This document shows positions 1,846-40,000 of a stretch of 55,350 nt of DNA, piece after piece. The DNA is from an uncultured euryarchaeote (GTDB lineage: Archaea > Thermoplasmatota > Poseidoniia > Poseidoniales > Poseidoniaceae): NCBI GenBank assembly GCA_937894115.1, contig CALBFP010000230.1:1-55350 (forward strand). The letters run 5' to 3'. Every line of letters begins with the position of its first letter. Within the stretch, counting starts at the first letter, position 1. The translations under genes and the position numbers were made by a program. Below the pieces are notes generated by a model that saw only the letters and a program-made list of their open reading frames with translations, was not told the DNA's origin and did no database searches.

Positions 1846-4800
1846 ATGACTATGTTGGGAAACAAGAATAAGAAAACGAAAACCGCAATGGGTGGAATCG
1901 GAATTGCCGTTCTGCTATGTGCTTTGATGGCCTTCATGCCAATGACAAGCCTAGTAGACAACACAGCAACCGATACTGTCAGCAATGCAGAGATCGTCTC
2001 AGAAGTTGACGATTTCTTCAAACTGCCAGCAACCATCGAACAAACGACCTATGAGTACGATGCCGCTCAGGAACACCTGGGCATGAGGCAGTTGAACACA
2101 AAGGGATTCTACACTGAAGATGGCAGAATCGCACAGCTCACAAGTGATGAGCCAATGCATTACCTTGCCGACAGTGGTGCCTTTGAGGACATCAACCTCA
2201 ACATCATGGCAACGCCTGAAGGCTGGGAAGTGACAGAGAACATCTTCACCACAACCTTCGGTGCTGAACTCGCCACTGGTGTAAGCATCCAAGCAAACCA
2301 ATTCGTCGATCCTATCGTCACTGGTTTGAACCCAATGCTCGTTACAATCGATGAGACCGGTACTTCTCCAATGCCGTACCATGCTGCACCAGCAATGGGC
2401 GATGTTGAAGTCGGCGGAAACGTCATCCGATACCCGCTCGCTGATGGGTTTGCTATCGACTACGCTGTCGATACATCGCAAGTCAAGCAAAACCTCCTCA
2501 TCCAAGAGCGACCCGAACTTGACGTAAGTGCGGCGTACTTCGGAATGACCGAGACCCTACGTCTACCTATGGGATACGGCCTTTTCCTTGACGGCGTTCC
2601 ACTTGGCGAAGAGATCACCACAACCCAAGGTGAACTGGAAATTCGCAACATGGAATCCGGAGAATTGTTGGCTACCATCCCTGAACCTGTCGTTCTTGAA
2701 GAGGCTTCAACCGAGCCGTACATCGGAACCTACTTCATCCAAGTCTTCGGACCGATGGTTCTTCTAACAACTGCCGTTGATTCGGATTGGTTGCTGTCCG
2801 AGGACCGAGCTTACCCGCTTGCTCTGGACCCCACCATTAAGCTCACAAGCGGAAACCGTGGATACTGTTACGTTTACTACGGTTACTGTTACAACAGCAC
2901 ATACGCTTACTTGTACCGCTACTACGGTTCCTACTACTACCTACCATGGCACAAGTACACCTTCTCAAGCAGTTCTGCTCTACCAAGCGGCGCTACCGTT
3001 GAAGAAGTCAACTGGAAGCAATACGTCAACTACGGCTATGGAAGTTCATCCTCGACCAGCATTACAGCGAGAGTCCTCGAAGCATGTGGGACGGATACTC
3101 GATACAACTACGGTGTCACCTCCGCTTCCTGTTCAGGTTCAATCGCAGCCAACTTGCTGTCCGGTTCGAACACCAACGCAAACGAGCGCAAGTTGATCTC
3201 TTCAATCGGTAACTCTGCCGCAGCAGGTACCTATTCCCAGGGTACTGGCTGGAAGACTGCCGAAATTTGCGACAACAACAACGCAGCAGGTACTGCTTGT
3301 TCCTCTTCAACAGGTTCACACAACTACATCCTCAACGCCCAATCCAACTCTGGAGTAGTGGGTATGGGTGCAGACATGACCTCAAGCATTTACATCTACA
3401 CACGATCGTACAACTCCGGTGGCTCCAACAGCTATCTGGAAGTCATCTATTCCGGTGGTTCTGACACGGATGCCCCAACCTCGAGTCACGTGCCATACAC
3501 CGGTCTAACATCGTATGTCGAAGGTGAGCGAACGTTCTTCACCGAGTTGACCGACTTGTCTGGAATCGATACAACGTCCACCAACGGCGTCAAGATGTTT
3601 TACAGCATCAACAATGGAACATGGACTTCAACAAGCGCTACGACCGTACAGAGTTGTGGCAGCACTGCGACGGACTGCCGCTTCAAGGCAACCACCCCTG
3701 ATCTCAGTGCAGGCGACTATGTCGAGTATTACTGGAAGTTCCAAGACCTCAACTCTGGAAGCAACGGAGCCAACGTCGGTTACGACCCAGTACCTCCTGC
3801 AAGTGCAACGAACCCATCAACATGGGTACAGAGCAATGCACACTGGTTCTTTGTCGACGATGTCACGAATGCTGGAACAGCCAAGAAGTTCACCGTCCTA
3901 CAGACGGATGTTCACTCTGGCAGTTACTTCAGTCCTCAAGGTTTCCACGACCGACAAATGACGTACTATGACCACAGCGACGAGTACCTCTTTGAGTGGG
4001 ACGTCTCCAACTGTGGAACAGGTAGTTACTCCTGTTTCTACTCGTCCTCTTACTACTTCTACTCACAGTGGAAGATGAGCTGGACAACATCGCCAAGCAG
4101 CGGTTACAACGGCTTTGGCGGAACACGAGAAGGAATGATGGAAATGCACCAAGGCGACGGAGGTTTCCTCGCCATCAGTGCAAAGAACGGTCCACAGATG
4201 AACCTCATTTTCCATTATGATTCATCAGGCAACGAGTGGGGAATGGTCGGTATCGGCGATTCGACTCCTGAAATCGAAACCGGAAAACTCGCTGGTGGAA
4301 CCGGTGCATCATCTGTTAGCACCTACGGTTACACAGCTGCGTACAACATCCCAATGTCCGGACTGGACATCACTGGAACCTTCGGTAAGTTCGATTGGAA
4401 CGGAACCTACAGCACATCGAAGGCCAACTGGCTCTGTGCCGGTACAAACGGGTTCTACTACTTCTACCGTTCCACATCGAGCAACGCTCGATGTTCCTCG
4501 GGTTACTACTACGCGTATTCCACCTCCTACCGATGGAGTGGATTTGCACTCAGTGCCGGATACTACGGACGCATGGCATCTTCCGGTACGACCACCTACA
4601 AGGTAGGAAACGTCGCACCAACTCCAGACAACAGCGCTCCTACAATGGACCACGGTGTTATGCGAGACTCGCACAGCAAGACCCGTACCTTCTCGTACAC
4701 AATTGCTGATGCTGGTGATCCACCATCAGGATTGAACGTAAACCAGACCATCGGTGAAGGGCCGACCCTGTACTACAGTGTGAACAACGGCACTGAAAAC

Positions 4801-7800
4801 TCGGTGTTGCTCAACCCTGTAGGCAAGCAGCGAAGCGAATGTGTCGATGCTGAGTGTCAGTGGTCTGCCGAAATCACGACCTTTGAGCGCGGCGATTACA
4901 TCACGTACCGAGCCCAATCTGTTGACACATCGACAGCATCTGGTGGTACCAACACGCAGAGCACATCGAGCAACAGCTTCGAAGTTGGAGACCCCAACAT
5001 GATGCTCATCGTTGAATGGCGCGACATGGGATACAACACTCAATACCTCTGTGATTACCAAGTCATCTTCTATGACGTCACCAACGAGATTGAGTTCAAG
5101 TACGACACCTCATGCAACGCATATTACGACTATGCTACGGTCGGATACATGGATCACACCCGAACCAAGGGTGACACCATGCGAAACCCTGGTGGCGGAT
5201 ACATGGCTGGAAACAACCCGCACACTGCCAACTTCCGTATTTCAACGGACGGTAACGACCATGGATACGAGACCTTCTCCGCAGGAATGAAATCCGTTAC
5301 CAATGCCGCAGAGGTTATCTCCGGATCTTCCAACGGTCGTCCAACAGGATACTACTGTTCATACAGCTACTACTGGAACCAATTCAAGACCGGATGCAAC
5401 GCCAACATCGACCTACCATCGGGCTTCACGTTTGATTACTTCCAGAAGTCCTTCGACGGAGACGACAGCAACGACCGTCTACGAATCGGTCGATTGGGTT
5501 ACCTCTACATGATTGACAGTGGTTCAACAGCACTCGAACGCGGTATCACCACATGGGGTAGCAACATGCCTGCATTGCCATACTCAAGCAACTCAGCAGC
5601 ACGAGCTGGAACCATTGCTCCGTGGTGGAGTTACTACAGCAGTTACTACTGTTACGACAACACGAACACAGATTGTGGCGTATACGTACGTGCCATGCCG
5701 TTTGAAGGCAAGGGTACCGATGTCGACAGCGATCTTGATTGTTCAGGCAACAACATCGAATGTATTTGGGACAACGAAGGTTCCCCGTACCGAATCAGCC
5801 CAAGCGGCGACTTCTTGTCCGTCAGCGGCGGCGACCTGACCATCGAGCCAGGCACCGTTATCCAGGTTGAGCAGGGCAAGGGTATCTCTGTCGACGGTAC
5901 ATGTGATTCCGTTAAGGCATCCGGTAACTCGACCCATCACATCCTCTTTGAGGGCCAGAATGGTGCCGAGTGGAAGGGTCTCTCGTTTACAGACGATTGT
6001 GCAACAACCGGCGGAACCGATGACCGACACGTCTTCAGTTACGTCGATTTCAAGAACACAAGCACTGCCGCAATCTCCGCTGGTTCACGCCACGGCGACT
6101 ACAATGCATACTGTGCTGACAACTCCGGTGGTACCCGACCGTGCTATTCCAACAACAACGTTGGAAACTTCACGCTCAGCCACGTCACCTTCACCAACGT
6201 CGAGACGGCCATCCGTCACGGCAGTGGACAAGGTACCGGCTTCACCATGAACGAATTCAGCATTAGCGGTGCAGACAAGGCTTGTATCAACCTCCCATCG
6301 AGCTCCGATGCCATGATCACAGAAGGTACAATGACCAACTGTAACACGGACGGAGAATCATGGGGTGGCGCTATCGTCAACTACCCAGGTTCAACAGGCG
6401 GAATGCTCCATGTTGAGAACGTAACCATTGAGAACGCATACGTCAACCTGATTGACACCGATCTCCAACATGTTACAATTTCCAACGTTACTGCAACCAT
6501 CACATCAGGAAGCCAACAAACAGGTACTGTTTTGTCATCCGATTACGGTGTTGCAAGCGAAGTGAAATTGAACAACTTTGTTGCCGATGATTACTCAAGC
6601 GCATCCATCAACGCCCTCGGTCACATCAACATGACCGATGTCGACTGGGGAAGCGCTGATTTGACCATCGCACCTGGTGGATCCTCAAGTACAGCAAACG
6701 GACCATCTGGCGATCATGCAATCATGGACGATGTTACTGCAGGTAACATGCTCATCTATCGAATGCAGCCATCCATCTTTGCTGACGTTACAGCAGGTCA
6801 CATCGACTTCTCAGGTAACGCAATCACCACCGATGCAATGGTTGTCACCAACCTTGACTCTGGACGCTTCGGCGTTGCAGGTTGTGGATGGATTATCGAT
6901 GCTACGACCGTCGATGCTGACCGTTTGTACAGCAGCTGTTCAAGCAGCGCTGCTCCAAACACGATGATTTTCGATGACGGTACATTGACACACACCTCGA
7001 GCACAGACCATGCGGTCTATGCGCGAAACTCCAAGATGACACTCGGTAACTTCGGCATCACCAGCTCCAACGCTGGAGGCGGAACGGTATACCTCGCCTA
7101 TGGAAGCTCCAACGCTGACATCCGACTCATCGAAGTTGACCAAAACGGCAACGACTGTGCCGACTCCAATGGAGATACCGGAGACTGTGATGTTTACACC
7201 TCCAGTTCTGCTGTCGTCTACTACGGTGGACTTGCTGAACTCCGTGCTTACCGACTTGAAGCCGTTAACGGCGTTGTCACAGAAGTTGACAAGTCCGGTC
7301 ACGTTGTGAGTGCAAGCGTCGTCAACGGTGCTGGTTCCGAACTCTTTGAGGTTGGATCGCACATCACCGACAGCAACGGTGAGGCCGATGTATGGGTCAT
7401 CACTGGTGACAGCAACGGCAACACATACTCCGACCACAACCTCCGTGCCTTTGGACCAGCGGGTCAAAACGAGACCACAACCAGCGATGCATGGTACCCA
7501 AGCGGCGGATTCACCATCGGCGATTCATTTGCGCTCTTGTTGGAGCCCGCACCTGTGGATTTCAACGGAACCAACATGGATTGTGCATGGTTGGCTGCTT
7601 GGACCGATGCTGATACTGGAGCCGGTCTACCGACCAGCGGCACAACAGCCTCGGGACACACCATCTACGAATTCGACGGTACACCGATGACTTTGACTGA
7701 AGACCTCAACCTCAACGGTTGTGTCATCAAACTCATGGGTGCTGTTTTGAAGGTGAAGTCAACCGCGACAAACACACCTGTCTTGACACTATCTAACGGT

Positions 7801-10800
7801 GGAAAGTTGGTTGTTGGTACGTCAAGCGTAGCAACTGGAGCACTCCAAGCTGTTTCGTCAACCTACCCACTCCACATTGACATTCAAGATGGAACACTTG
7901 AGATTGACGGCGGTATCGTTCGTGACGTTGCACAAGACGCCACGACCGGCGCAGCGCTCTATGTTGGAGACGGTGCAACCCTCGTCATGAAGAATTCAGG
8001 TACGGTCTACGGATCCTCTGCCACCTCCGATACCATGGCAACCGTCATGATTAACGGTGGTAGTGCTGACATCGATTCTTCGAGCATCATCAACGTAGGA
8101 AACACTGGTACTGCCCTTTGGGTTGAGCAAGCCAGTGGATCGTTTAGCAACGTTGCAGTACAGAACGCTGCCGTTGGTATCCAATCCTACAACGGTGCAC
8201 CGCAAATCGATGGATTTACATCGACAGACAACACCGTTGGTGTTGATGTATACGGCGGCATGAGCCTGCCAACAATCTACCGATCCACGTCGCTTTCAGG
8301 TAAGTCCACTGGATGGCACACCTACGCCATCGACCTCAGTGCTTTCCTCGGAAGTGGTGACTACTTGCAGGTTGGTGCAAACACCATCTACGGTGGAGGA
8401 AACGCACACCCAACGTACAACTACGCATCAAGCAAGTATTACATGATGACCGATCGATGGAACATCGAGGTCACTTACGATGATGGAAGCGGTGAAGTTT
8501 CAGAGAACATCACCACGCCTGACAAGAAAGGATACTACCCATGGGGAACCAGCGATCCGAAGTCAGGAAACGGAGCGGACACCTACGCCGGTGGTGAAGG
8601 TGGTGTTGCATCGTGGCATTGCAACCAGTACGGTTACAGCTACGGTCCAGGATACACTGGCTCCTTTGATGGATACATGTACTACATGTGGCGCTTCTGG
8701 CCACAAGGCCCACAGCAGTTCGTTTCCTATCCAGGTTACTACTACTACCCAGATCAGTTTGGATTCCGCTGGAGCGAGATTGATTCCGATACCAGCCCAT
8801 CCTACGGATCCTATCCGTACATGTACTGGGGACTCTACTACAACTCGTACCACGGTGGACAAAGTGTCTACAAGCCTCCTGAAGGATACGTCGGATACGG
8901 TGGATACTACAACGTTTGTGCAGCCCGCGCTTACTCCTACTGGATGAACGCTGGTGAAGGCGCTCGAATGACCTTCCCAATCGTTGACATCTCCGATTCG
9001 GATATTTCCAAGGTGACCATGTACGTCGACGTTCTGCACAACCGTGCTGACAACTTCCAAGATCGAATGGACTTGGTCGCTCGTGTTGGAAACGATCCAA
9101 GCGATCTCGGAGATTACGCTCGAGACAGCGGAACAGCTTCTTTCCAGAACGGTGACATTACCGGTGCAGAAACCGGTATCATGGTCGGCGGTAACTTTGC
9201 TTCCGGAAACTTTGACGGAATCGACATTACTTCGCCAACCGACTCCGGTATCGAAATTGTCGGCGCAACCGCTGCCGCAATGAACGATATTGAAGTCACT
9301 GGCGGAGACTACGGTATGCTCGTCTCAAGTTCGGGTTCAGGTCAGATGGACTTGACAAACATGGACTTCGATGGACAGAACAACGCCGGTATCTACTACG
9401 TCAAGGACTTCGGCGGTGAACTGTCAGGTACCATTACCAACAGCGCTGGTGCAGCATACAAATACGGATCATTGACGGCGAAGGACGCGTCCTTTGACAG
9501 CGTGGTCGTTTCAGGCAACAACGTCGGTATTGAGACCGCTGGTTCAGGTGACCTCACCATCAGCGATTCAACCTTCGCCAACACTGTGGACGACATCAAG
9601 ATCACCGGAACAAGTGAAATTGATTTCATCGAAGGAACCATTGACACCAACAAAGTTACTGTAACCGGTAACGGTGGATTTGAGCGAATCCGTGAAGTGA
9701 CAATGTCACTGCAAGCCGATTCCAATCCTGTCACAGACACCAATGTCGTGCTGATGAACGCAGATAAGAAGATTACAGGTACCGGAACGACGGACAGCAA
9801 CGGTGACGCAGAGGGAATACAATTCCGAACCATGCGCATTGACTCCTCCGGACCGACGACTGACGATTTGGCTGGATACCAAGCAGCTACAGTTGCCATG
9901 ATTGATTACACATCGACCAAGGGTGACTTCCGCTACGCTTTCGAAACCTTGTCGCTCAATGATGCAGGTGGAAACACTGGCAGCATTGATTTGACGGATC
10001 GAATCAACGCTCGAGTTTGTTACAGTTTCAACAGTGCATCTTACGAGATGGTTTCCAACTGTGCGAGTTACCTCAGCACAGGTGGTAGCCGTGACTTGTC
10101 AGACGGTAACGGTGGTACGTACAAGGAGTACGGTTACTACGCAGCTACACCTGAAGATATGTCAGGGAAGACCATCATGATGGACGTTCCGTTCATGTAC
10201 TTCGACGACAACGACGAGCACAACTGGAACAACACGCTCGTCCTAATCACTGGATCATACACGTTCACTGATACACAACGCTGGTATGCTCAAGGTGGCA
10301 GCAACGCTCCTGAGTTGTACTTGCACGATTCTGAAGTCTACGGATTGGCAACCAATTCAAACACTGGACAACAAACCGGTCTTGAACTTGGTTACATCTA
10401 TCAAGCAATGGACATCTCGATCAAGGATTCAACCTTGAATCCTGTTGCTACGATTACCAGTGGTATGGCGTACAACTCCAACTGGAACAACAACGACTAC
10501 AAATCTGAATTCTTGTACATGGACAACGTAACTGTAACCCACTACAAGGGATACACGCCACTAAACAACGCGATTCAGACCAATGACATCTGCGTTCGAA
10601 TGACCGGTAGCGATGGTTCTCACATCAAGGACAGCACCTTCAACGATTGTGGTACAGGTATTTACATGACACGCAGCCCATACGCATACGGCCACCAGGC
10701 CAGTGAATACGGTGCTGACAACCTCACCATCGAAGGAAACGAATTCAACGATGGTGGAGAGATAGCTGACGTTTGGGTCGGATCCAATGGTTACGTCGAT

Positions 10801-13800
10801 GATTTGATTGTCACAGGAAACTGGTTCAACAGTTCATCTGCTGAAGAAGGATTCTCTGCATTCGCTGGTAACAACAAGCGATTCACAGTTTCGGACAACC
10901 ACTTTGACGGACCACAAACTGCGATTCAGATGTACGGCATCCAGGATTACACCATTGACAACAACGAAATCATCGGTACTGCGGAAGCAGGCGAGGCTGG
11001 TATCGAAACCGACGCTGGATACGGTGTCATCTCCAACAACTCACTGTTGGACGCTGATGGCGGTATCTACATGGAAGACGCTACAAGCCCACCAGCACCA
11101 TCCACAAGTTTGTGTACGATTGCATCAAATGCATACAGTTCTCAAGCATCCTGTACGTTTACAATACCGTCGGGTGTTACTGCGTACGTTGATCTTCAAT
11201 CGGACAGCTGGGGCGGTGAAATCGGTCTTGAAATCACCAAGCCTGACGGTACGAAAGACACATGGGCTGCAGGATCGTTCAGTTCCAACACCATCTACGC
11301 ACGACTAACCTCTTACTCAACCTCGGGTCAGTACACCCTCAAGGTAACCGACACATGGGGCGATGGTGGAGCAAACATCGCAGTGTACTACGGTACTTCG
11401 ACTGGCGGTTACGACGGTCCATCCGTTGAAAACAACACCATCTCGCTCAGTGCGGGACGTACGGCGCCAAACGCAGTTGGACTTGACTTCAACGATTGTG
11501 ACAAGGTCACCATTCAGAGCAAGGACAACGATGTTCAGGTTGGTGACAACGCAATGGTTCTCAACGGCTGTGGTGTATCCGATGTGGACTCTACCTTCGC
11601 AGGAACAAGCGTTGCCTCGAGCATTGGTATCTCATCGCTGAACGGTGATGACATCACACTCGATGGAACAAGCATTGGTGGATATGCCTACGGTATCTCC
11701 GTCGAATCCGCAACCTTGGTGATGTACGGTGACGCTTCCGTCGCTGGTTCAACTGCAGGTATCTACGCCGACAGTGCAACGGTCACAGCGATCGGTGCAT
11801 CCGTTGACGGTGGAACAAGCGGTACAGGGTTGTACATGGTCGATGGTGACTACTCGTGGATTTACCCACTCGATGCTGCGGGCAACGTTGGTGTCTACGC
11901 TGAGAACACCGAGTTCCGATGGGACGGCGGTATCTCAACGGCAACAACAGCTCTCCATGCTGTCGAGTCGACAGGATCTGTAGAAAACCTGACCTGGTCT
12001 GCTTCAACAACGCAGATTAACGCAGGCTCGAACGCTTACGTGACCAGCATTGGTAACTCGCTCGATGCCTCGAAGATCAGCATTGTATCTTCTGCGACCA
12101 TTGACGAAGCGAACCTCTTCAGCCTTGATGCTACTCACCTCGGTGGCGCAGCATCCGCTGTTGGCATGTCCTTGGTTTCCACAGATGGAACCCGTGCGGC
12201 CTACGTCTCACCATCCTTCCAGCCTGATATCATGGCTGTAGACGGTGACAATTCGGATTGGATTGGTGGTACACCACTGAACCCATCTGACGATGCTATG
12301 CCCGGTTTGATTTCCGGTGACGGAACCAACGACTTCTACGTCACATACAGTGAAGGCGATGCGCTCTACATCGGTATGACCGGAGAAGATCTCACCAACA
12401 ACGACCTCTTGATTTACCTCGATGTCGTTGCTGGTGGAACCAACACAGGTTACAACCTCAACGGTGCTCACACACTCCCTGTACAGGCAGATTACTTGTT
12501 CTGGGCAACCAGTGATTCCAACATGGATCTCTACTCCAGTGGATTCCTCGGTTGGGGTGCTAGCTCCTTGTCCAACGACGCTGTCGACGCTGACCTGGGA
12601 ACAACAACTGCTAATTTCTTTGAAATCGCAATTCCATTCAGCCGAATTGGTGGAACGCCTGATGAAGTGAACATTGTTGCTGTCGTCCAAGACGGTTCAG
12701 CAAACATCCAAACCGTTCACCCAACTCAGACCGTCACTACGGGCGTACAATCGCTTGGAGAGTACATCTCTGTCGAGACCACTCATGACGACTTGGAATC
12801 TGGAAGCATCAGCGACGAAGTACTCGTCTACCGTACCTACAAGGGTACGACCACCGCAGGACCTGCAAAGGACTACGATGTGATGATCAAGACGAAGGCC
12901 GATTGTGCATTCGATTGGGCAACCATTGACGCTGTTTCAATGGCGACCAACCAAGAACTCAGTGTTGACATCAAGCGTGCATGTCCTGAAATTCAGGCAG
13001 CTCTTGCTGATGATGCAATTGACGAAGATCCTACTGAGGCATACGTCATATCCTTGACGAACCTCGCAGACGACGTCCAAGACGATGAGGCCGACCTCAC
13101 CTGGACCGTCACAGAAGGAACTACCGTTGCACACAGCAACGTCTTGGTCAACTGGGACAAGAATGGACACACAGTGACCATCACGCCTCTCGCTGACCAA
13201 TTTGGTACGATTGAGTTCGAATTTGTCGTAACAGACAGCAACGGCTTGACCGATACAAAGAACATGACCTTGACGGTAAACAACGTCAACGACAAGCCAG
13301 ACATCTGCAACATGGATCGAGCTGATTGTATGCCAGTCTTCGTTGATGACGGATCTTACACGAACATCGTTCCTGAAGGATTCGGTAGCGTCTCCAAGTT
13401 CCTTGGTGACATCTCCAACGCAAGCAAGTCGTACATCCGTGACATGGACAACGAGCAGAGCCCTGTTCGACAAGTCTACACATGGGGTGCATCCGTACCA
13501 ACGAACTGTGTTGCATTCGGAGTAAGCGTAACCAACAACGAATTGACGATCACCGAGAACACTTCCAACGAACTTGGTGGTGAGTGTGACGTCACACTCA
13601 CTCTAAGCGACGACGCTGGTACATGTTACAACTCTGACTTTGCTGACACTACAGACGACACCAAGGCTGCTTGTGAGAACTATGTGTATCTCAACAACGC
13701 CAACTGGGGTGGAACCATCTACACCGGTTGTTACAACATGCACACGCATGTGTTCAACCCAACCACATCGCAAGCAGAATGTGAGGCATACAGCTTCACC

Positions 13801-15669
13801 GGTGAGAATGCTGACGCAGATCCGTATGTTGTCTCGTTCTCTGTAAGTCCAGTTAACGATGCTCCAGTCGTCCTCGATTGGGATGTCACATCTGGAGCCG
13901 TTGTAACCGCTGCGAACGGATCAACACCAGTTGCTCCGTGGTCCATCAGCCTCATGGAGGATGATACCAACGTCGAAAACTTGACCTATGACTTGTCTGC
14001 AGTCAAGTACGATGTTGACCATCTCGATGCAGACTTGACTTGGACTGTTGAATCAACCGACCAGTGTACCTACGAGAACTACTTCAGTACTGAAATCGTT
14101 GGAGACAACCTTGTCTTCACACTCGTACCTGATGCAACGACAACCGCTAACGCTTGGGAAATCGACTACTTGAACGACAACGGTATCCACCAAATCGGAC
14201 CAAGTGGTTCCGACTTCTGTCAGATCCGCCTTGTCCTCAAGGATACTGCAACAGCACCAAGTTATGTTCCAAACTACGACCCATCGGTTATGCCGATTGC
14301 AAGTTACCAACAAGGTGTTGCAACCCAAGAAATCGGTGTTCGTGTTGAGAACGTGCGTGAACTCGTTGCGGACTACTCGCTCGATGAAACCACAGGATTT
14401 GACTTCCAAGGCATTACCGACGTCTTGACGGGCACCTATGTGCCGGTCGAGGTTGACGTCAGTGCTGGCGGCGATCAAGGACCGTACACCTACGACCACA
14501 TGTTGGCTGTAACCTTCCACACCAGTGGAGGTCACGGTGAAGCAGAGAACGTCATGTACGTCACACCTCCAGAATGGGGCGAGACCATGACCATCAAGGA
14601 ATACGTGTACATCGTTGACGATGGACAATCCACACCATACATCTGGGTTGAGATGGACGTTCTCACCTGTTTGGATGCAGAGTGTGACCTTTCGAAGTCT
14701 CCTGCACAACGGTTCCAGACCGATGATCCATCATCCCACATCAACTATGGTGGCGGCGTTGTTGGTGACCAATGGTCCAAGCCTGGTGCATACGGTGACG
14801 ATGGAATGAAGGAATCTCAGCGCCGACCGCTTCTCCAAGACAGCAACTGGTGCAACAACGTCATGTTCTCCGATGCATCTGCAATCGGTAGTGAGGCAGG
14901 AATACCAACCACCTGTAACCATGCGAACAAGCCAGCTGAGGACTTCCTCAGCAGTGGAGACAAACTCCCATCGGTTGTTCAACTCGGTGGTGGCATTGGA
15001 TCTGTTCCATCGTTCGCACCAAGTCTCGTCGTCGTAGCCCTTGCTGGCTTCTTCGTAACTGCACTTGCCATGGCAAGCCGCCGTGAAGATGAAGAGGAAG
15101 AGAATGAAGATACACGACGCATTGTCGAGGACGAAATGGCTGTTAGCCCGGTTATCGCAACCATCCTCATGGTTGCAATTACCGTCGTTCTCTCCGGTGT
15201 AATCTATGTCTGGGCTTCTTCTCTTGCTGAGACAGGTAAGTTGGGTGTTCCTCGTGTGACGTTCGATATCGAGAACGAAAAACTTGGAACTGTAGACGGA
15301 TACTGGGCCATAACGGTCGATCAAACAGAAGCTGAGTTGGCTACAGGTGCCGTCACAGTAACGGTGCTTTACAGCAACTCAGACGGTGTTCGAACATCCT
15401 ACGAAACACTCCTCTCAAACACGAGTGGTGTTTATGGATTCAATCCTTCGAACAGCGATGCGTTTGTGACCTTCGTCGATAAGGTTGAAGACGATGGTAC
15501 CTTCAAGGAGTCTACCTTTGGTATCGGAGATCAAATCTTCGTCAAGACTCATGCTCCTGACGGAAAGGCATTGGACGATGCTACCATTCGTATCACGTAC
15601 CAACCAGGACCAGGAGAAGGTTCGGTCATCAAGACCTACTTGGATCTCGAGTACAACAAGGTCGTCTGA
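1846..15669 (+). CDS. Giant (4607 aa) multidomain surface protein: signal peptide, WapA/DNRLRE-like N-terminal region, Tyr-rich segments, beta-helix repeats, CBM9/DOMON-like and cadherin-like domains, TM anchor, C-terminal type IV pilin-like module
   Basis: Single ORF; N-terminal KKTKTAMGGIGIAVLLCALMAFMP signal; 'YPLALDPTI' motif; PbH1-like 'GNEFND..GNWFNS..DNHFDG..NNEIIG..NNSLLDADGGIYM'; 'VDGDNSDWIGG' region; TM 'PSFAPSLVVVALAGFFVTALAMASRRE'; 'RRIVEDEMAVSPVIATILMVAITVVLSGVIYVWASSL'. The start may be the ATG at 1852. Confidence 0.9.
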   Translation: MTMLGNKNKKTKTAMGGIGIAVLLCALMAFMPMTSLVDNTATDTVSNAEIVSEVDDFFKLPATIEQTTYEYDAAQEHLGMRQLNTKGFYTEDGRIAQLTSDEPMHYLADSGAFEDINLNIMATPEGWEVTENIFTTTFGAELATGVSIQANQFVDPIVTGLNPMLVTIDETGTSPMPYHAAPAMGDVEVGGNVIRYPLADGFAIDYAVDTSQVKQNLLIQERPELDVSAAYFGMTETLRLPMGYGLFLDGVPLGEEITTTQGELEIRNMESGELLATIPEPVVLEEASTEPYIGTYFIQVFGPMVLLTTAVDSDWLLSEDRAYPLALDPTIKLTSGNRGYCYVYYGYCYNSTYAYLYRYYGSYYYLPWHKYTFSSSSALPSGATVEEVNWKQYVNYGYGSSSSTSITARVLEACGTDTRYNYGVTSASCSGSIAANLLSGSNTNANERKLISSIGNSAAAGTYSQGTGWKTAEICDNNNAAGTACSSSTGSHNYILNAQSNSGVVGMGADMTSSIYIYTRSYNSGGSNSYLEVIYSGGSDTDAPTSSHVPYTGLTSYVEGERTFFTELTDLSGIDTTSTNGVKMFYSINNGTWTSTSATTVQSCGSTATDCRFKATTPDLSAGDYVEYYWKFQDLNSGSNGANVGYDPVPPASATNPSTWVQSNAHWFFVDDVTNAGTAKKFTVLQTDVHSGSYFSPQGFHDRQMTYYDHSDEYLFEWDVSNCGTGSYSCFYSSSYYFYSQWKMSWTTSPSSGYNGFGGTREGMMEMHQGDGGFLAISAKNGPQMNLIFHYDSSGNEWGMVGIGDSTPEIETGKLAGGTGASSVSTYGYTAAYNIPMSGLDITGTFGKFDWNGTYSTSKANWLCAGTNGFYYFYRSTSSNARCSSGYYYAYSTSYRWSGFALSAGYYGRMASSGTTTYKVGNVAPTPDNSAPTMDHGVMRDSHSKTRTFSYTIADAGDPPSGLNVNQTIGEGPTLYYSVNNGTENSVLLNPVGKQRSECVDAECQWSAEITTFERGDYITYRAQSVDTSTASGGTNTQSTSSNSFEVGDPNMMLIVEWRDMGYNTQYLCDYQVIFYDVTNEIEFKYDTSCNAYYDYATVGYMDHTRTKGDTMRNPGGGYMAGNNPHTANFRISTDGNDHGYETFSAGMKSVTNAAEVISGSSNGRPTGYYCSYSYYWNQFKTGCNANIDLPSGFTFDYFQKSFDGDDSNDRLRIGRLGYLYMIDSGSTALERGITTWGSNMPALPYSSNSAARAGTIAPWWSYYSSYYCYDNTNTDCGVYVRAMPFEGKGTDVDSDLDCSGNNIECIWDNEGSPYRISPSGDFLSVSGGDLTIEPGTVIQVEQGKGISVDGTCDSVKASGNSTHHILFEGQNGAEWKGLSFTDDCATTGGTDDRHVFSYVDFKNTSTAAISAGSRHGDYNAYCADNSGGTRPCYSNNNVGNFTLSHVTFTNVETAIRHGSGQGTGFTMNEFSISGADKACINLPSSSDAMITEGTMTNCNTDGESWGGAIVNYPGSTGGMLHVENVTIENAYVNLIDTDLQHVTISNVTATITSGSQQTGTVLSSDYGVASEVKLNNFVADDYSSASINALGHINMTDVDWGSADLTIAPGGSSSTANGPSGDHAIMDDVTAGNMLIYRMQPSIFADVTAGHIDFSGNAITTDAMVVTNLDSGRFGVAGCGWIIDATTVDADRLYSSCSSSAAPNTMIFDDGTLTHTSSTDHAVYARNSKMTLGNFGITSSNAGGGTVYLAYGSSNADIRLIEVDQNGNDCADSNGDTGDCDVYTSSSAVVYYGGLAELRAYRLEAVNGVVTEVDKSGHVVSASVVNGAGSELFEVGSHITDSNGEADVWVITGDSNGNTYSDHNLRAFGPAGQNETTTSDAWYPSGGFTIGDSFALLLEPAPVDFNGTNMDCAWLAAWTDADTGAGLPTSGTTASGHTIYEFDGTPMTLTEDLNLNGCVIKLMGAVLKVKSTATNTPVLTLSNGGKLVVGTSSVATGALQAVSSTYPLHIDIQDGTLEIDGGIVRDVAQDATTGAALYVGDGATLVMKNSGTVYGSSATSDTMATVMINGGSADIDSSSIINVGNTGTALWVEQASGSFSNVAVQNAAVGIQSYNGAPQIDGFTSTDNTVGVDVYGGMSLPTIYRSTSLSGKSTGWHTYAIDLSAFLGSGDYLQVGANTIYGGGNAHPTYNYASSKYYMMTDRWNIEVTYDDGSGEVSENITTPDKKGYYPWGTSDPKSGNGADTYAGGEGGVASWHCNQYGYSYGPGYTGSFDGYMYYMWRFWPQGPQQFVSYPGYYYYPDQFGFRWSEIDSDTSPSYGSYPYMYWGLYYNSYHGGQSVYKPPEGYVGYGGYYNVCAARAYSYWMNAGEGARMTFPIVDISDSDISKVTMYVDVLHNRADNFQDRMDLVARVGNDPSDLGDYARDSGTASFQNGDITGAETGIMVGGNFASGNFDGIDITSPTDSGIEIVGATAAAMNDIEVTGGDYGMLVSSSGSGQMDLTNMDFDGQNNAGIYYVKDFGGELSGTITNSAGAAYKYGSLTAKDASFDSVVVSGNNVGIETAGSGDLTISDSTFANTVDDIKITGTSEIDFIEGTIDTNKVTVTGNGGFERIREVTMSLQADSNPVTDTNVVLMNADKKITGTGTTDSNGDAEGIQFRTMRIDSSGPTTDDLAGYQAATVAMIDYTSTKGDFRYAFETLSLNDAGGNTGSIDLTDRINARVCYSFNSASYEMVSNCASYLSTGGSRDLSDGNGGTYKEYGYYAATPEDMSGKTIMMDVPFMYFDDNDEHNWNNTLVLITGSYTFTDTQRWYAQGGSNAPELYLHDSEVYGLATNSNTGQQTGLELGYIYQAMDISIKDSTLNPVATITSGMAYNSNWNNNDYKSEFLYMDNVTVTHYKGYTPLNNAIQTNDICVRMTGSDGSHIKDSTFNDCGTGIYMTRSPYAYGHQASEYGADNLTIEGNEFNDGGEIADVWVGSNGYVDDLIVTGNWFNSSSAEEGFSAFAGNNKRFTVSDNHFDGPQTAIQMYGIQDYTIDNNEIIGTAEAGEAGIETDAGYGVISNNSLLDADGGIYMEDATSPPAPSTSLCTIASNAYSSQASCTFTIPSGVTAYVDLQSDSWGGEIGLEITKPDGTKDTWAAGSFSSNTIYARLTSYSTSGQYTLKVTDTWGDGGANIAVYYGTSTGGYDGPSVENNTISLSAGRTAPNAVGLDFNDCDKVTIQSKDNDVQVGDNAMVLNGCGVSDVDSTFAGTSVASSIGISSLNGDDITLDGTSIGGYAYGISVESATLVMYGDASVAGSTAGIYADSATVTAIGASVDGGTSGTGLYMVDGDYSWIYPLDAAGNVGVYAENTEFRWDGGISTATTALHAVESTGSVENLTWSASTTQINAGSNAYVTSIGNSLDASKISIVSSATIDEANLFSLDATHLGGAASAVGMSLVSTDGTRAAYVSPSFQPDIMAVDGDNSDWIGGTPLNPSDDAMPGLISGDGTNDFYVTYSEGDALYIGMTGEDLTNNDLLIYLDVVAGGTNTGYNLNGAHTLPVQADYLFWATSDSNMDLYSSGFLGWGASSLSNDAVDADLGTTTANFFEIAIPFSRIGGTPDEVNIVAVVQDGSANIQTVHPTQTVTTGVQSLGEYISVETTHDDLESGSISDEVLVYRTYKGTTTAGPAKDYDVMIKTKADCAFDWATIDAVSMATNQELSVDIKRACPEIQAALADDAIDEDPTEAYVISLTNLADDVQDDEADLTWTVTEGTTVAHSNVLVNWDKNGHTVTITPLADQFGTIEFEFVVTDSNGLTDTKNMTLTVNNVNDKPDICNMDRADCMPVFVDDGSYTNIVPEGFGSVSKFLGDISNASKSYIRDMDNEQSPVRQVYTWGASVPTNCVAFGVSVTNNELTITENTSNELGGECDVTLTLSDDAGTCYNSDFADTTDDTKAACENYVYLNNANWGGTIYTGCYNMHTHVFNPTTSQAECEAYSFTGENADADPYVVSFSVSPVNDAPVVLDWDVTSGAVVTAANGSTPVAPWSISLMEDDTNVENLTYDLSAVKYDVDHLDADLTWTVESTDQCTYENYFSTEIVGDNLVFTLVPDATTTANAWEIDYLNDNGIHQIGPSGSDFCQIRLVLKDTATAPSYVPNYDPSVMPIASYQQGVATQEIGVRVENVRELVADYSLDETTGFDFQGITDVLTGTYVPVEVDVSAGGDQGPYTYDHMLAVTFHTSGGHGEAENVMYVTPPEWGETMTIKEYVYIVDDGQSTPYIWVEMDVLTCLDAECDLSKSPAQRFQTDDPSSHINYGGGVVGDQWSKPGAYGDDGMKESQRRPLLQDSNWCNNVMFSDASAIGSEAGIPTTCNHANKPAEDFLSSGDKLPSVVQLGGGIGSVPSFAPSLVVVALAGFFVTALAMASRREDEEEENEDTRRIVEDEMAVSPVIATILMVAITVVLSGVIYVWASSLAETGKLGVPRVTFDIENEKLGTVDGYWAITVDQTEAELATGAVTVTVLYSNSDGVRTSYETLLSNTSGVYGFNPSNSDAFVTFVDKVEDDGTFKESTFGIGDQIFVKTHAPDGKALDDATIRITYQPGPGEGSVIKTYLDLEYNKVV
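15124..15669 (+). other. Archaeal type IV pilin-like module (Pilin_N/DUF1628-type) inside the C-terminus of the 4607-aa ORF
   Basis: VEDEM|AVSPVIATILMVAITVVLSGVIYVW matches the class III signal/H-domain pattern of archaeal pilins, followed by about 165 aa of beta-rich sequence. Confidence 0.8.
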
Positions 15670-15777: not shown

Positions 15778-16458
15778 ATGGCCAAACCATGTCGTTGTGT
15801 TGTTTTTGATTGTGATGGAGTACTCGTAGACTCAGTGAGTTCATGGAAAACATTGCATGATGGATTCGGTACCGACAACAGCCAAAATCTCTCGCAGTTT
15901 ATTGCAGGGAAAATCACTGATGTTGAATTCATGCGTTCAGATATTGCGATGTGGAAAGCGATCCGCGAGCCAATCCATGAGGACGAACTGTTCAGAATGT
16001 ATTCGGGTATTTCTCTCATGGAGGGCGCACGCGAGACCATCAAGGAACTCCAAGATGAAGGCGTTTACGTCGCAATCGTCAGTGCAGGCGTTGATTTGTT
16101 TGTCAGCAGTATAGCCGCCATGCTGAAAGTCGACGATTGGATAGCGAATGGTTTCGAATTTGATGAAGACGGCTTTTTGACCGATAACGGTGTTTGCCGT
16201 CTCCATGCAAGTGGTAAGGGGGATGTCATAACGCGTCTAATGGATATACATGGATTTTCACCAGAGGAGATCGTTTCCGTTGGTGATTCAGAAATGGATT
16301 TATCGATGATGGTTGAGGGTAGCAAATTCATTGGTTTTAATCCAAGTCGCGACTCGTCAATTAAAGCGTTCACAGACGCGAACGTTCCGATTGTAATGGA
16401 GAAAGATTTGTCAAAAATCCTTGATTTCATCAAGCTGCCATCAAGCGAAGGGAATTGA
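15778..16458 (+). CDS. HAD-superfamily phosphatase (phosphoserine phosphatase-like)
   Basis: Motif I VVFDCDGVLVDS, motif II VSAG, motif IV GDSEMDLSMM. Confidence 0.85.
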   Translation: MAKPCRCVVFDCDGVLVDSVSSWKTLHDGFGTDNSQNLSQFIAGKITDVEFMRSDIAMWKAIREPIHEDELFRMYSGISLMEGARETIKELQDEGVYVAIVSAGVDLFVSSIAAMLKVDDWIANGFEFDEDGFLTDNGVCRLHASGKGDVITRLMDIHGFSPEEIVSVGDSEMDLSMMVEGSKFIGFNPSRDSSIKAFTDANVPIVMEKDLSKILDFIKLPSSEGN

Positions 16459-34004: not shown

Positions 34005-37000
34005 ATGAAAAACAGCACCACAAATCGAAATGTCTTCACCGCAGTGACGCTAATTTTGATGTTCCTATTAGCCGATGTCTTCGTACCATCAGCATTCCCT
34101 GCCCCTGAACATCTTGAGGAAGAACCATCGGTTCAACATGTCATATCCACAACCAATCCCAGTTTGGACACCTACATCGATTCTGATTATCCGAACGACG
34201 ATTACGCCGGTGAAGATACAGGGCTGCTCGGCGTATCGGGTACGAGTGAGGGGCGTATCCTTCTTTCCTTCCCGCTCAACTTTGCACACACAGACACGAT
34301 TCATTCTGCGCGTCTTGACCTCGTATGCACAAACAGCGGGCCAACTAACGGATTGGCGGTATACCCTGCATCGACCTCTCTCTCATGGGACGAAAACGCA
34401 ACATGGAACTCACGCGACGGTACCATGCTGTGGGGTGAGCCGGGTGTTGGGGAAAGCACCGATCGCTCAGATTGGGAGCCCCCCATTGTAACCGCACCTC
34501 TAGGGCCTACTGGAGGATCCTCCAGTGTTCAACTGAACGTAACGGCTCTCACTCAAGTTGCGGTTGCTTCAAACGCCACCGCATTGGGGTTGGTGGTTGC
34601 CGCACAGGATTCTCAATACGATTGTGCGATGAACGAAACGTTGAATGTTGCCGATAAACCATCACTTCGTATTGATTCTTCATCAACGGTATCTGGAAGC
34701 GGAGGACTCATCACACCGAATTTTGTTGCAGATGCCGCCCCACTCATGACCGGCGATTTCCTTCTTACAGCAGACCTCACGCCAAGCATGACATGGTCTG
34801 GTTTCTCCGGTACCTTCGCCGAAGTACAACTCTCGTTGAGTGAAGAATTTAAGGACGCACAAGACAATTACGCTTGGCTTTACAATTCCGATGTTCACTC
34901 GTCAATTTTTACCTTGTCAGGTGCAACCGGTTCATTGGATATACCATCATCGGATGCCTTTGAGAACGGAACCTACATGCATTATCGAATGCGTTCGATG
35001 GACTCAACAGGCACGCTCGGATCGTGGGAAACGGGTTCGTTCTTCCTCCCCTCCCACGACGTTGTCGATAACGGAGATGGAACCGCATCAATCGCCATTG
35101 ATGTGGATGATCTTTCATCCGAACTCCCCTTCATCGAAGATGCATATGCTGACGAGACCAGCAAGAATACAAATTACGGTTCTTCCACAACATTGGAGGC
35201 CGAACTGTCCTCAAACAAGGAGAAGATTCCCCACTTCCGATTGGTGTTCGATGCGATAGGTATGCATTCCAACGCAACAATCCTTGATGCTTCATTGAAC
35301 CTCACCCGCTCCACTTCAAGCGGTTCAGCAACATTGGCGTTGCATGAAATGGACAACGATGGATCGTGGTATGAGGATGAACTCACGTGGCTGCGGAAGA
35401 AAACCAATCAATGGTGGCGAGACGGAGGCCGAGGATTGCTGAGTTATTCGACCGATTCTGGCGTAATGGGTTCCCAGGTCAGTGATGACTTTTCGTTTGA
35501 TTTAACCTCAGTACTGCAGCAACATCTCGACCAAGGAAACACCGGTTTCATAGATCTCGCAATGACAACACGTTCACAAAACGGTGCATATTCTGCGAAT
35601 GCTGGCGTTGATTCCGTAACCTTCCATTCGTCGGATGCAAACAACCAAGCGGATAAACCGTACCTCTACATCCAATACGATTGGTCCACACCGGTGACAA
35701 CAGCACCGGATTTGACCTCGCCATGGGACGGTGAAACCCTCTGGAATCAAACGGGTCACAACTTCACTGGCAACACGACTCCTGCACTGAAGTGGTCGTC
35801 ATCAACATCATCGTCGTACGATATGATTTTTGAACTTTCAACCGATTCACTGTTCCATGACCGAGTGGTCCGATTTGACACTCGTGTGGACAACGACTTT
35901 GCTCCGGTTGACGGTCAACTCGTTTTTGATGGCACTGAAAGCCTCGAAGCAGGTCACATGTACAACTGGCGAATGTTGCACGTTGATTCCAACGACCGTC
36001 ACGGGGAATGGTCCTATTCCTCGTTCCTCATCAGTTCGATAAACTCAACATGGCTTGGCGGAGACCGTTACGAATTCCGTCTCAAGCAAGGGAATGCGAG
36101 TTCAGATGGGCTCCATCCTGCATGTGCTGATACGTACATCGACTCTGGAATGCCCAGTTCAAATTACGGTTCAGAAACGGAGCTCCAAGTTTCCTACAAT
36201 ACGATTCCTTCTGAGACGACTGTGTTGTTTGGATGCGACCTATCAACCACATTCCTCCCATCGGGTTATGCTGTAGAATCTGCAAACCTCGAGTTATATC
36301 TTAGTGATTTCCCGTTCGGTACACCGGTTGTCGGAGCATGGGAAAACACACAACACGGTTGGACTGAAGACGGTGCAACATGGGCGACTTACGATGGAAC
36401 CAACACATGGAACAGCGTTGGAGCCAAGGGAAGCGAACGCTCTTCCCTCCTTGATTCGGTGAGCATTGGGACAGGGTACACCTCAACCTCATCAGCGAAC
36501 TGGAACGTAACGCTTGCTGTGCAAAATGCGATGCGTAACAACCACTCTGCAGATTTCATTCTTGGAATTGTTGGTGCAGGCAGTGGTCAAATTCGTGACG
36601 TTTTGTTCCATCCTGGTTCCGCTGCGGACGCCAAGCGACCGGAACTTTCCTTTGTCTACGTCCCAGGTTCTAATGCAATTCCAGTCGAGCCTGTTCCAGT
36701 TCTTCCTCTCAATGGAACATGGAGCGTTGCCTCAGGCATCAACCCCGAACCGGTTCTCCGTCCAAACATGAGTTGGACTCATACGTCTGGTGTCGGAGTA
36801 AGTGGCTATGCAGTGCAAATGGATACGGTCGACACATTCGACAGCAACGACATGAGCATAGAGACCTCATGGTCCAATTCCGGATTTGATCTTGCAAACA
36901 ATGCATTTACGCCGACGAGCGACTTGGACGCTGGTAAGACGTGGTATTGGCGTGTTCGTGCAGTCTCAACGACCAATCAACTAGGAAATTGGTCCGAAAC

Positions 37001-40000
37001 CTTCCATTTCAATCTCCCGTCTTTGGTCACTTGGAATCTTTCTTCAACAAGTGCAGCAATTGAGGTTCGACATCATGAGGCGATGCCCGATCTCCAACTA
37101 CCGCACTTCATTGATACATGGGTTGCGCAGAGCGGGGTTGAAGGACAACAAAACCATTCCAGCTCAACCGACCTCAAGGTCGGAGAATTGGGCAGCGGTT
37201 ATCATGCCAGCGCTCTTTTGAAAATACCCTTGAATCAACTTCCAACGCCGAGCAACGCAAGAGTTACGAACGCTGAATTGTCGATGTGGGCTCAATCCGG
37301 TTCGGATACCAATGCACAAGTTGCGGTTCGCCCCGTGTTGCAACAATGGACCACGGCTGTCAACAATTCAAGCTATGATGGTCTCAACAACTGGAACGCC
37401 GACGGTGGTCGAGGTATTGGATCTGATGTGGGTTCATTGAGCGATTTGAGCGCATCCGTTTCCGCTGATTGGATGGACTGGGATGTCACTGAATTGGTTC
37501 AAGCAGCTCTCGCCAACGGTGACTCCTATCTTTCGATTGCGCTGATGACCAGCGACGCTTCCAACGCTCTTGTTACGTTCACCAGCACAGACGGACTTGC
37601 CACCCAACGACCTTGGTTGAACCTTACATGGACTGAAGGCTCATCTCCAATCCCTACAGTTGCAGCAAGCAATGTACTACCTGCAGATGGCACCATCGCA
37701 TGGGATTTGAGCGGACACGTTCCAGAACCTTTGACCCGCCCTGTCATGACTTGGAGCCATTCAAACGCCGCCAACATTGACGATTGGAAGGTTTTCATTC
37801 AAAACGACGACTCGGATATCATGCAAGGCTTTACTGTCTACGATTCAAGGGCAGATCCTGCCTTGTTCGATTTGCAAAACCTTTCGTTCCAGCCATCGAG
37901 CGACCTTTCGACCAACCAAAGCATTCGTTGGTTCGTTCAGGCCGTGAACAACAGCATGCTCGGCCCTCGCTCGACGAGTTCTCTCTTCCACATTCCGCAC
38001 GACATTGGAAACGAAATCAACAACACATTGGGTTACATCAACGTCTCAGAAGGAGGCTTCCTTCCGGACTACAACGAACCGTCCGGTTTCATAACGGATA
38101 CGACAATCGATTCAAGCGCACCAACTTCCAACCTTTTCAATTCCGACACGCTTAGTGTTGGACGCTCAGCTATCAGCGGCGGTCAATCCCAACGCTCGTC
38201 GTTCATTGTATCCGTCGATTTGACCAAACTCCCAATCAACGGAAGTTATGAGATTATGAATGCCTTCTTTACACTGCACACAAAATCCACAAGTTATGGA
38301 GAGGTCTATTGGAGTGCATCTGCACTCAATACCGCTTTTGATGGTGACGCCAACTGGAACAATGCCACCAATTCAACTCAGTGGAACGCACCTGGTGCCT
38401 ACCACTCAACGGATACGGACATACCCATGCTGGGTAAAAGTCTCATTGATTCCAGCAGTACCGCACAAATCGGGGATATTACGTGGATGCTTCAACAAGC
38501 CCTTGCTGGTGGTTCAACCAGTTTGGATTTCCTCATTCAGGCTGAAGAAAACGACAGCAGTGTCGATGGCCGAGTTGATATGTATTCAAGCAACGAAGCC
38601 AGTGCAGACCTGCGTCCATCCCTCAACATTACCTTCCGAATGACGAACCCGTACGTCGACCCAAGTCCAACAGGTTTGCTACCGGTTGACGGAGCAACGC
38701 TGTGGAATACATCAGCGCCAAGACCAACAGGTACCGACGATCTCAACACCTCTTGGACCCCTCCATCTTCTAACTTTACTGGATACGTCCTATGCGGAGC
38801 ATCGGACGCACGGATGGTCTACGATTTGAGTTGTGTCAACACTGCGGATTCAGCTGGTTTGATCGATGCAGAAGTAACCTGGGATCCAACAACCACAACA
38901 CTGAACTTTGGCGACATCGGTTCCGGCGATCATTGGAATTTCTGGAGGGTTCTTTCATTCCAAGACATAAATGCAGGACAATATGCTAGAATTGGAGAAT
39001 GGTCGCAAGTCAACAAATTCCGGATACCCGATGCGCAAGGTTCGGACGACGGGGCAGGAAACCACACCGTGAATCTCTCGAGTGGTTCCATCTTTGCGGA
39101 AACTGGGTTGTTGCCGGGTGCTCCAGATACATACACCGTATCTTCTGCATTAAACACCAACTATGGTGGTAGTTCGACGCTCAAATTGGGTGTAAGTTCC
39201 TCGGGTGATAATGAAATCTACATTGAATTCGACCTGTCCCAGATGCCATGGCCATCTGCCATGACGCCGACATCGACGATGCTTCAACTGTATCGAACAC
39301 AGGTTGCTGGTGTCACACCGCTAACAGTGAGCGCACATGCGTGTTCAACGTTCAACGAGGCAAGTGTAACAGCGCTGCAACCTCCGACCTGCAGTACAGC
39401 AGAAATCACGCGTTCCACACTTGCGGTTACACCTCCATCTGGTTGGCTTGAGTGGGACATAACTTCTCTTGCTCAATCCAACATCGCAAGTGGAAACCTG
39501 ACCATGACCATCAAACTCACTGTTGTTGGTACGGGAGCAAGTCTCCACACCTTTGCATCCGGTGAACACCCGACAGATTCCTGGCGACCGACGTTGCGAA
39601 TGGATTACGTTGACAATGTCGCAGGCATCGTTCCTCCTGCCCAACCCGCCCTCCTTTCACCTTTGGATGGAGCAATTTTGTACAACACGACAACAACTTT
39701 GCTTGAATCACTTGACAAGCCAGTGCTCAATTGGAATACCGTATCTGGAGCGACCGGTTACATTGTAACGATTCGAAACGCATCGGGACAATATACCTTC
39801 AAATCGGCAACCTCAAACCAAATTTCAGGCACGAGTTTCACCTTTGCGAATGCTGTTGCTCCGGGATCAACATTTGAATGGTGGGTACAAGCAGTCAACG
39901 GTTCCATACCCGGCCCTTCCTCTTCCCGTTGGGTTGTTGGAATGGGTGACCCTCAAACCACCGATAACTTCGATCACACGTGGACGTACAAATTCCAGAC

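Follow-up and report, generated by a model that had tools for sequence, protein, structure and literature searches.

How does an archaeal pilin come to lie at the C terminus of a giant surface protein, and what would such an arrangement do? The question is raised by a 4607-residue open reading frame (ORF) in a 55,350-nucleotide stretch of DNA, here called the window (contig CALBFP010000230.1 of assembly GCA_937894115.1), from an uncultured archaeon of the order Poseidoniales. Poseidoniales (Marine Group II) are the most abundant planktonic archaea in ocean surface waters. Their adhesion has been inferred in published work largely from archaellum genes (PMC6461757), and a conserved gene joining a giant surface protein with a PilA-type pilin would give them a specific attachment part that can be tested. 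The analysis described here indicates that the fusion is real and that the cell coat is probably connected through it to a pilus. A literature search for C-terminal pilin fusions returned nothing relevant, with most subscription papers outside its reach, and no report of a giant surface protein with a conserved pilin at its C terminus was found in the literature searched.

Surface protein and pilin in one frame

The initial annotation described a single ORF in which a transmembrane (TM) helix and a charged segment are followed by a complete archaeal pilin unit, and this description stands. The frame is uninterrupted from 1846 to 15669, and the pilin module matches Pfam Pilin_N (PF07790; residues 4432–4477, E = 2.5e-7) and TIGR02537, both above their curated cut-offs. 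The module begins at Ala4432 (position 15139), residue 4432 of 4607, with its prepilin signal away from the N terminus of any short precursor; the mature pilin, if cut, would comprise about 175 residues (Val4433–Val4607) rather than the ∼165 first given. The giant body contains NosD-like and Ig-like matches, and the name of adhesin earlier given to it is not supported as written.

A search of related Poseidoniales, which the initial annotation had proposed, recovered the fusion in the same order and the same frame in about 60 of 98 relatives, the set used for all genome surveys here and one in which many metagenome-assembled genomes (MAGs) are incomplete. It occurs in every sampled genus of the window's family and in four genera of a sister family (g15, g17, g19, and g22), so that the arrangement is no oddity of a single genome. 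Full-length orthologues, genus g4 excepted, are ∼4500–4800 residues long and share 34–80% identity over 80–100% of the window protein; one of them (L059) lies within a 2.06-Mb single-contig genome (G033). Outside the order, across the phylum, only short standalone pilins were found among the matches listed. The named public records with the fusion are MAGs of Poseidoniales or Euryarchaeota, except for one contig (L163) in a MAG labelled Rhodobiaceae, which is presumably misbinned.

The junction was scanned from the SF[A/V]P motif ahead of the first TM helix (TM1) to SPVIAT in 161 fetched loci, which represent 100 distinct junctions, some loci being one contig fetched twice. No stop was found, nor any sign in these relatives of the frameshift that would divide the gene. 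Internal stops in some matches (G024 and G040) were discounted, as the fetched loci are uninterrupted frames with complete pilins, and the matches concerned therefore probably overrun a real stop. An internal start at an ATG, the other objection foreseen at the outset, is not conserved: the ATG at 15136, which precedes AVSPV in the window's genus, is not shared between genera, and in 18 of the 100 distinct junctions the final 21 codons before Ala(−1) contain no ATG, GTG, or TTG. Synonymous differences per conserved fourfold site within the window's genus amount to 0.39–0.51 at the junction, where such sites are few, versus 0.34–0.43 elsewhere. Neither the start-codon nor the synonymous-site comparison pointed to an internal start, a promoter, or a frameshift element conserved at the junction, and an internal start or hidden regulatory element was rejected as a general explanation. 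Judged from these sequence comparisons, the fusion is a true single gene, probably maintained by selection and not created by an assembly error, and it is read as a single protein.

The pilin module and its neighboring domain

Mean pairwise identity among 41 aligned orthologues (alignment A2) is 95% over the 30 N-terminal residues of the pilin (its core), 51% in TM1, 49% in the linker that follows, and 42% in the pilin ectodomain. The fused H-domain is nearly identical to that of standalone PilA-type pilins from the same genomes and unlike that of another pilin type, which is encoded a few kb from a Tad-like ATPase (L003 and L084). The fused pilin part, as far as substitution patterns tell, is under pilin-type constraint. 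Replacement of the PilA H-domain abolishes pili in Haloferax (PMC4371748), and we infer that PilA-type pilins, or the machinery that serves them, are the packing partners of the fused H-domain.

In a Foldseek search, the pilin model was most similar to ArlF (4p94) and then to archaellins (9eq7 and 7ofq), with good probability and low TM-scores; the best match, to the β-sandwich of ArlF, has E = 3.9e-4 and a TM-score to the target of only 0.43. A search with a 437-residue model gave mostly poor long alignments. No archaellum genes were recognized next to the fusion, as judged from the ends of the window's ORFs, the ArlF- and ArlG-like proteins of this genome being encoded at another locus (L139).

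The domain preceding TM1 was modeled with a pLDDT mostly of 76–92 over its first 120 residues, and its addition to the model raised the confidence of the pilin ectodomain from blocks of ∼57–91 to 84–95, a change to which a different alignment may also have contributed. In three secreted paralogues the hairpin (TM1, linker, and H-domain) is missing and the pre-TM1 domain is joined directly to a pilin-like ectodomain, which suggests that the two flanking domains dock; two of these paralogues (L112 and L114) continue into aspartate-rich repeats and a TM segment. Genus g4 retains the C-terminal ∼450 residues, including the pre-TM1 domain, although its giant body does not align. The two extracellular domains on either side of the hairpin thus look like a unit and may dock. 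The g4 proteins (L053, L055, and L056) have an unrelated body of ∼2000 residues in place of the giant one.

Pilus machinery in the same genomes

A prepilin peptidase and an assembly ATPase are both encoded in the window's own genome (G000). The peptidase, of the FlaK type (G000:C165:4632-5612), was found with a three-row alignment, the profile of which matches FlaK (3s0x) at 3e-13; both catalytic-Asp motifs (D..RRVPN and GGAD) are unchanged across its three rows. The same alignment identifies the enzyme in 68 of the 98 genomes, versus 3 of 98 with Pfam Peptidase_A24 alone, a model that misses the divergent FlaK-type peptidase in nearly all Poseidoniales. The genome also encodes a Tad-like ATPase and, as its partners, two T2SSF proteins, and FlaI is present in the archaellum locus at L139.

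The fusion occurs in genera with PilA-type pilins, FlaK-type peptidase, and Tad-like ATPase. By genus, its distribution matches that of the ∼415-residue Tad-like ATPase exactly, with both present in 15 genera and neither in 7; by genome the co-occurrence is weaker, because many MAGs are incomplete. Genera g14 and g21 have only a FlaI-sized ATPase and the FlaK-type peptidase; the fusion is absent from both, and no PilA-type pilin was detected there with the queries used.

Possible cleavage and predicted topology of the fusion

Archaeal prepilins carry Gly, Ala, or Ser at −1, as in the sites DA↓VS and RA↓VS of Haloferax volcanii PilA proteins (PMC4371748), a rule that places the site in the fusion at A↓VSPV. 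The initial annotation had placed it at EM↓AVSPV, one residue too early; the residue preceding this Ala varies, whereas the Ala itself, at −1, is invariant in 100 of 100 fusions. Acidic residues at −3 and −4 are retained, as in standalone pilins. Ala4432↓Val4433 is thus the likely candidate cut.

The reading we prefer, to which we give close to an even chance, is a tandem of surface protein and prepilin that is cut by the FlaK-type peptidase, its products remaining docked. The giant body would be exported until TM1 halts transfer, leaving the basic pair and the acidic linker in the cytosol in place of the short N terminus of an ordinary prepilin. The pilin H-domain would then insert in the opposite direction, with export of its β-ectodomain, and the peptidase would most likely cut at Ala4432↓Val4433 to yield two products, a surface protein anchored by TM1 and a pilin competent for assembly. 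With the pre-TM1 domain and the pilin ectodomain still docked, the surface protein would anchor, seed, or decorate a PilA-type pilus. Such a cut would mean that a prepilin signal can function far from the N terminus of a protein, after a TM helix, where prediction tools based on the N terminus would miss it.

This reading draws on the in-frame fusion at all 100 distinct junctions, on a pilin core that is far better conserved than TM1 or the ectodomain and nearly the same as in standalone PilA-type pilins, and on the invariant Ala(−1) and preceding acids together with a peptidase that has both catalytic-Asp motifs. The genus-level match with the Tad-like ATPase, the ArlF/archaellin-like ectodomain, the paralogues that join the flanking domains directly, and the C-terminal region, the only part kept in genus g4, are also in its favor. 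Cutting by a prepilin peptidase is placed a little ahead of no cutting because Ala(−1) is invariant although it would be lost from the mature pilin, because the H-domain is fully pilin-like, and because the linker is expected on the cytosolic side, on which the peptidase is active. The cytosolic placement of the cut predicted in the initial annotation is supported, with a FlaK-type peptidase encoded in the genome; its proposal of cleavage into adhesin and pilin is left uncertain by the residue at −2.

That residue is one of the points that weigh against the preferred reading. A charged −2 residue is described as critical for archaeal prepilins (PMC4371748), yet the window has Met at this position, and a charge is present in 13 of 100 distinct fusions as compared with 22 of 29 standalone pilins (Fisher 3e-10, the sequences not being independent), that is, missing in 87 of the former and 7 of the latter. 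Moreover, no homology of the fused ectodomain to standalone pilin ectodomains was detected, and the co-occurrence by genus may reflect few losses or events, since genera that share ancestry do not count as independent cases.

Loss of the −2 charge favors a close rival, quite possible though second to the cut prepilin, in which the chain stays uncut. TM1 and the pilin helix would then stay together permanently as an anchor of two helices, with the ArlF-like ectodomain acting as a fixed base, stator, or terminal subunit by which a pilus is tied to the surface protein, giving a covalent link from the surface coat to a pilus or stator. An anchoring role is attractive given the resemblance to ArlF, as ArlF of Sulfolobus is secreted at full length and binds the S-layer, to which it ties the archaellum (PMC8667602). 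However, a plain membrane anchor would be expected to drift as TM1 does, whereas Ala(−1) is invariant and the H-domain is as conserved as in standalone pilins.

A third explanation, which we consider improbable, adds a second cut. An archaeosortase-like enzyme would act at V-P-S-F outside and the FlaK-type peptidase inside, so that the hairpin is discarded and a lipid-anchored surface protein is left docked to the pilin. The fusion would then be, and we doubt that it is, a surface polyprotein with two internal cuts on opposite faces of the membrane, its products forming a built-in joint between coat and pilus. Archaeosortase A (ArtA) is encoded in 88 of 98 genomes (in the window's own, G000:C89:20691-21491, E = 2.1e-26), PGF-CTERM proteins are present in Poseidoniales, and the conserved order V-x-S-F-x-P, TM, RR resembles a PGF-CTERM signal; in the Haloferax fusion HVO_0405, a centrally placed sorting signal is usable and is cut by ArtA (PMC7157517). 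On the other hand, the Gly of PGF is absent, the motif being PSF or ASF, and TM1 matched no sorting-signal model in the scan, for which reason it was rejected as a PGF-CTERM signal. A permuted PGF blocks processing in Haloferax, according to the work cited as reference 11 in PMC7157517, the Pro of the motif is also lost in several lineages, and ArtA is found in genera without the fusion as well. Archaeosortase A is nearly universal in Poseidoniales, where the Pfam model Exosortase_EpsH mostly fails to detect it.

Two genes or two translation products, whether through an assembly or sequencing error or through initiation at the ATG at 15070 or 15136, are very improbable and already largely refuted, for although, in the window's genus, the second ATG adjoins AVSPV and is preceded within a few bases by GAGG, this explanation is opposed by the unbroken frame of all 161 loci, by linkers devoid of start codons in 18 of 100 junctions, and by synonymous differences as high at the junction as elsewhere.

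Features of the locus

Table 1. Coordinates of the fusion gene, its segments, and the secreted paralogues
Feature	Position	Strand	Basis
Giant surface protein with C-terminal pilin module, one ORF, 4607 residues	1846..15669	+	No internal stop
Hydrophobic N-terminal segment AMGGIGIAVLLCALMAFMPMTSL, probable Sec signal	1885..1953	+	Sequence; orthologues with similar hydrophobic N termini
β-Rich extracellular domain preceding TM1, co-conserved with the pilin module	14356..15000	+	Alignment A4; model; genus g4
VPSFAP, the conserved motif V(P/A/T)SF(A/V)P ahead of TM1	15004..15021	+	In all fusions among the matches listed, the search not requiring the motif
TM1 SLVVVALAGFFVTALAMAS	15022..15078	+	Sequence; low-confidence helix in both models; 51% mean pairwise identity
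Basic pair RR behind TM1	15079..15084	+	RR or RRR in 92/100, R in 8/100
Acidic linker, predicted cytosolic	15085..15135	+	Position −3 acidic (D/E) in 98/100, position −4 D in 94/100
Candidate prepilin peptidase site A4432↓V4433	15139..15144	+	A(−1) and V(+1) invariant across the 100 distinct junctions; rule from PMC4371748
Pilin H-domain VSPVIATILMVAITVVLSGVIYVWASSLA	15142..15228	+	PF07790, TIGR02537; 95% mean pairwise identity; nearly the same as in standalone pilins
Pilin ectodomain, β-rich, ArlF-/archaellin-like	15229..15666	+	Structure model, Foldseek
Secreted paralogues without hairpin	L112:184-2280, L113:3-1898, L114:1718-3073	all −	

A gene for a HAD-like hydrolase lies directly downstream of the fusion both in the window (15778-16458, + strand) and in genus g15 of the sister family (L115:1177-1893, − strand), so the fusion locus looks syntenic. 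The window contains a second giant ORF (34005-43148, + strand, 3047 residues) with five CBM96 or seven DNRLRE matches.

Comparison with known systems

The fused module shares with archaeal PilA-type pilins (PF07790 and TIGR02537; PilA1–6 of H. volcanii) the H-domain, the A↓VSPV site with preceding acids, and a β-ectodomain. It differs in lying C-terminal to an exported protein of ∼4400 residues and a TM helix, in mostly lacking the −2 charge, and in an ectodomain that is not detectably related to those of standalone pilins. ArlF/ArlG stator proteins and archaellins provide the nearest solved folds to the fused ectodomain (4p94 and 9eq7), and ArlF binds the S-layer; ArlF is, however, small and encoded on its own within the archaellum locus, which these genomes also possess (L139), and the fusion is absent from the archaellum-only genera g14 and g21.

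PGF-CTERM proteins have a comparable motif, TM helix, and basic cluster, and HVO_0405 is an earlier example of a fusion that is cut internally, whereas the present protein has PSF or ASF, matches no PGF-CTERM model, and continues into a pilin. In large minor pilins with a C-terminal binding domain, of which L062–L073 include several examples, the same H-domain is likewise followed by an extensive extracellular part, here 300–800 residues long; in L064 this part resembles, by eye, a phosphate-binding protein. Their pilin part is N-terminal, whereas the fusion places it last and requires an additional TM helix.

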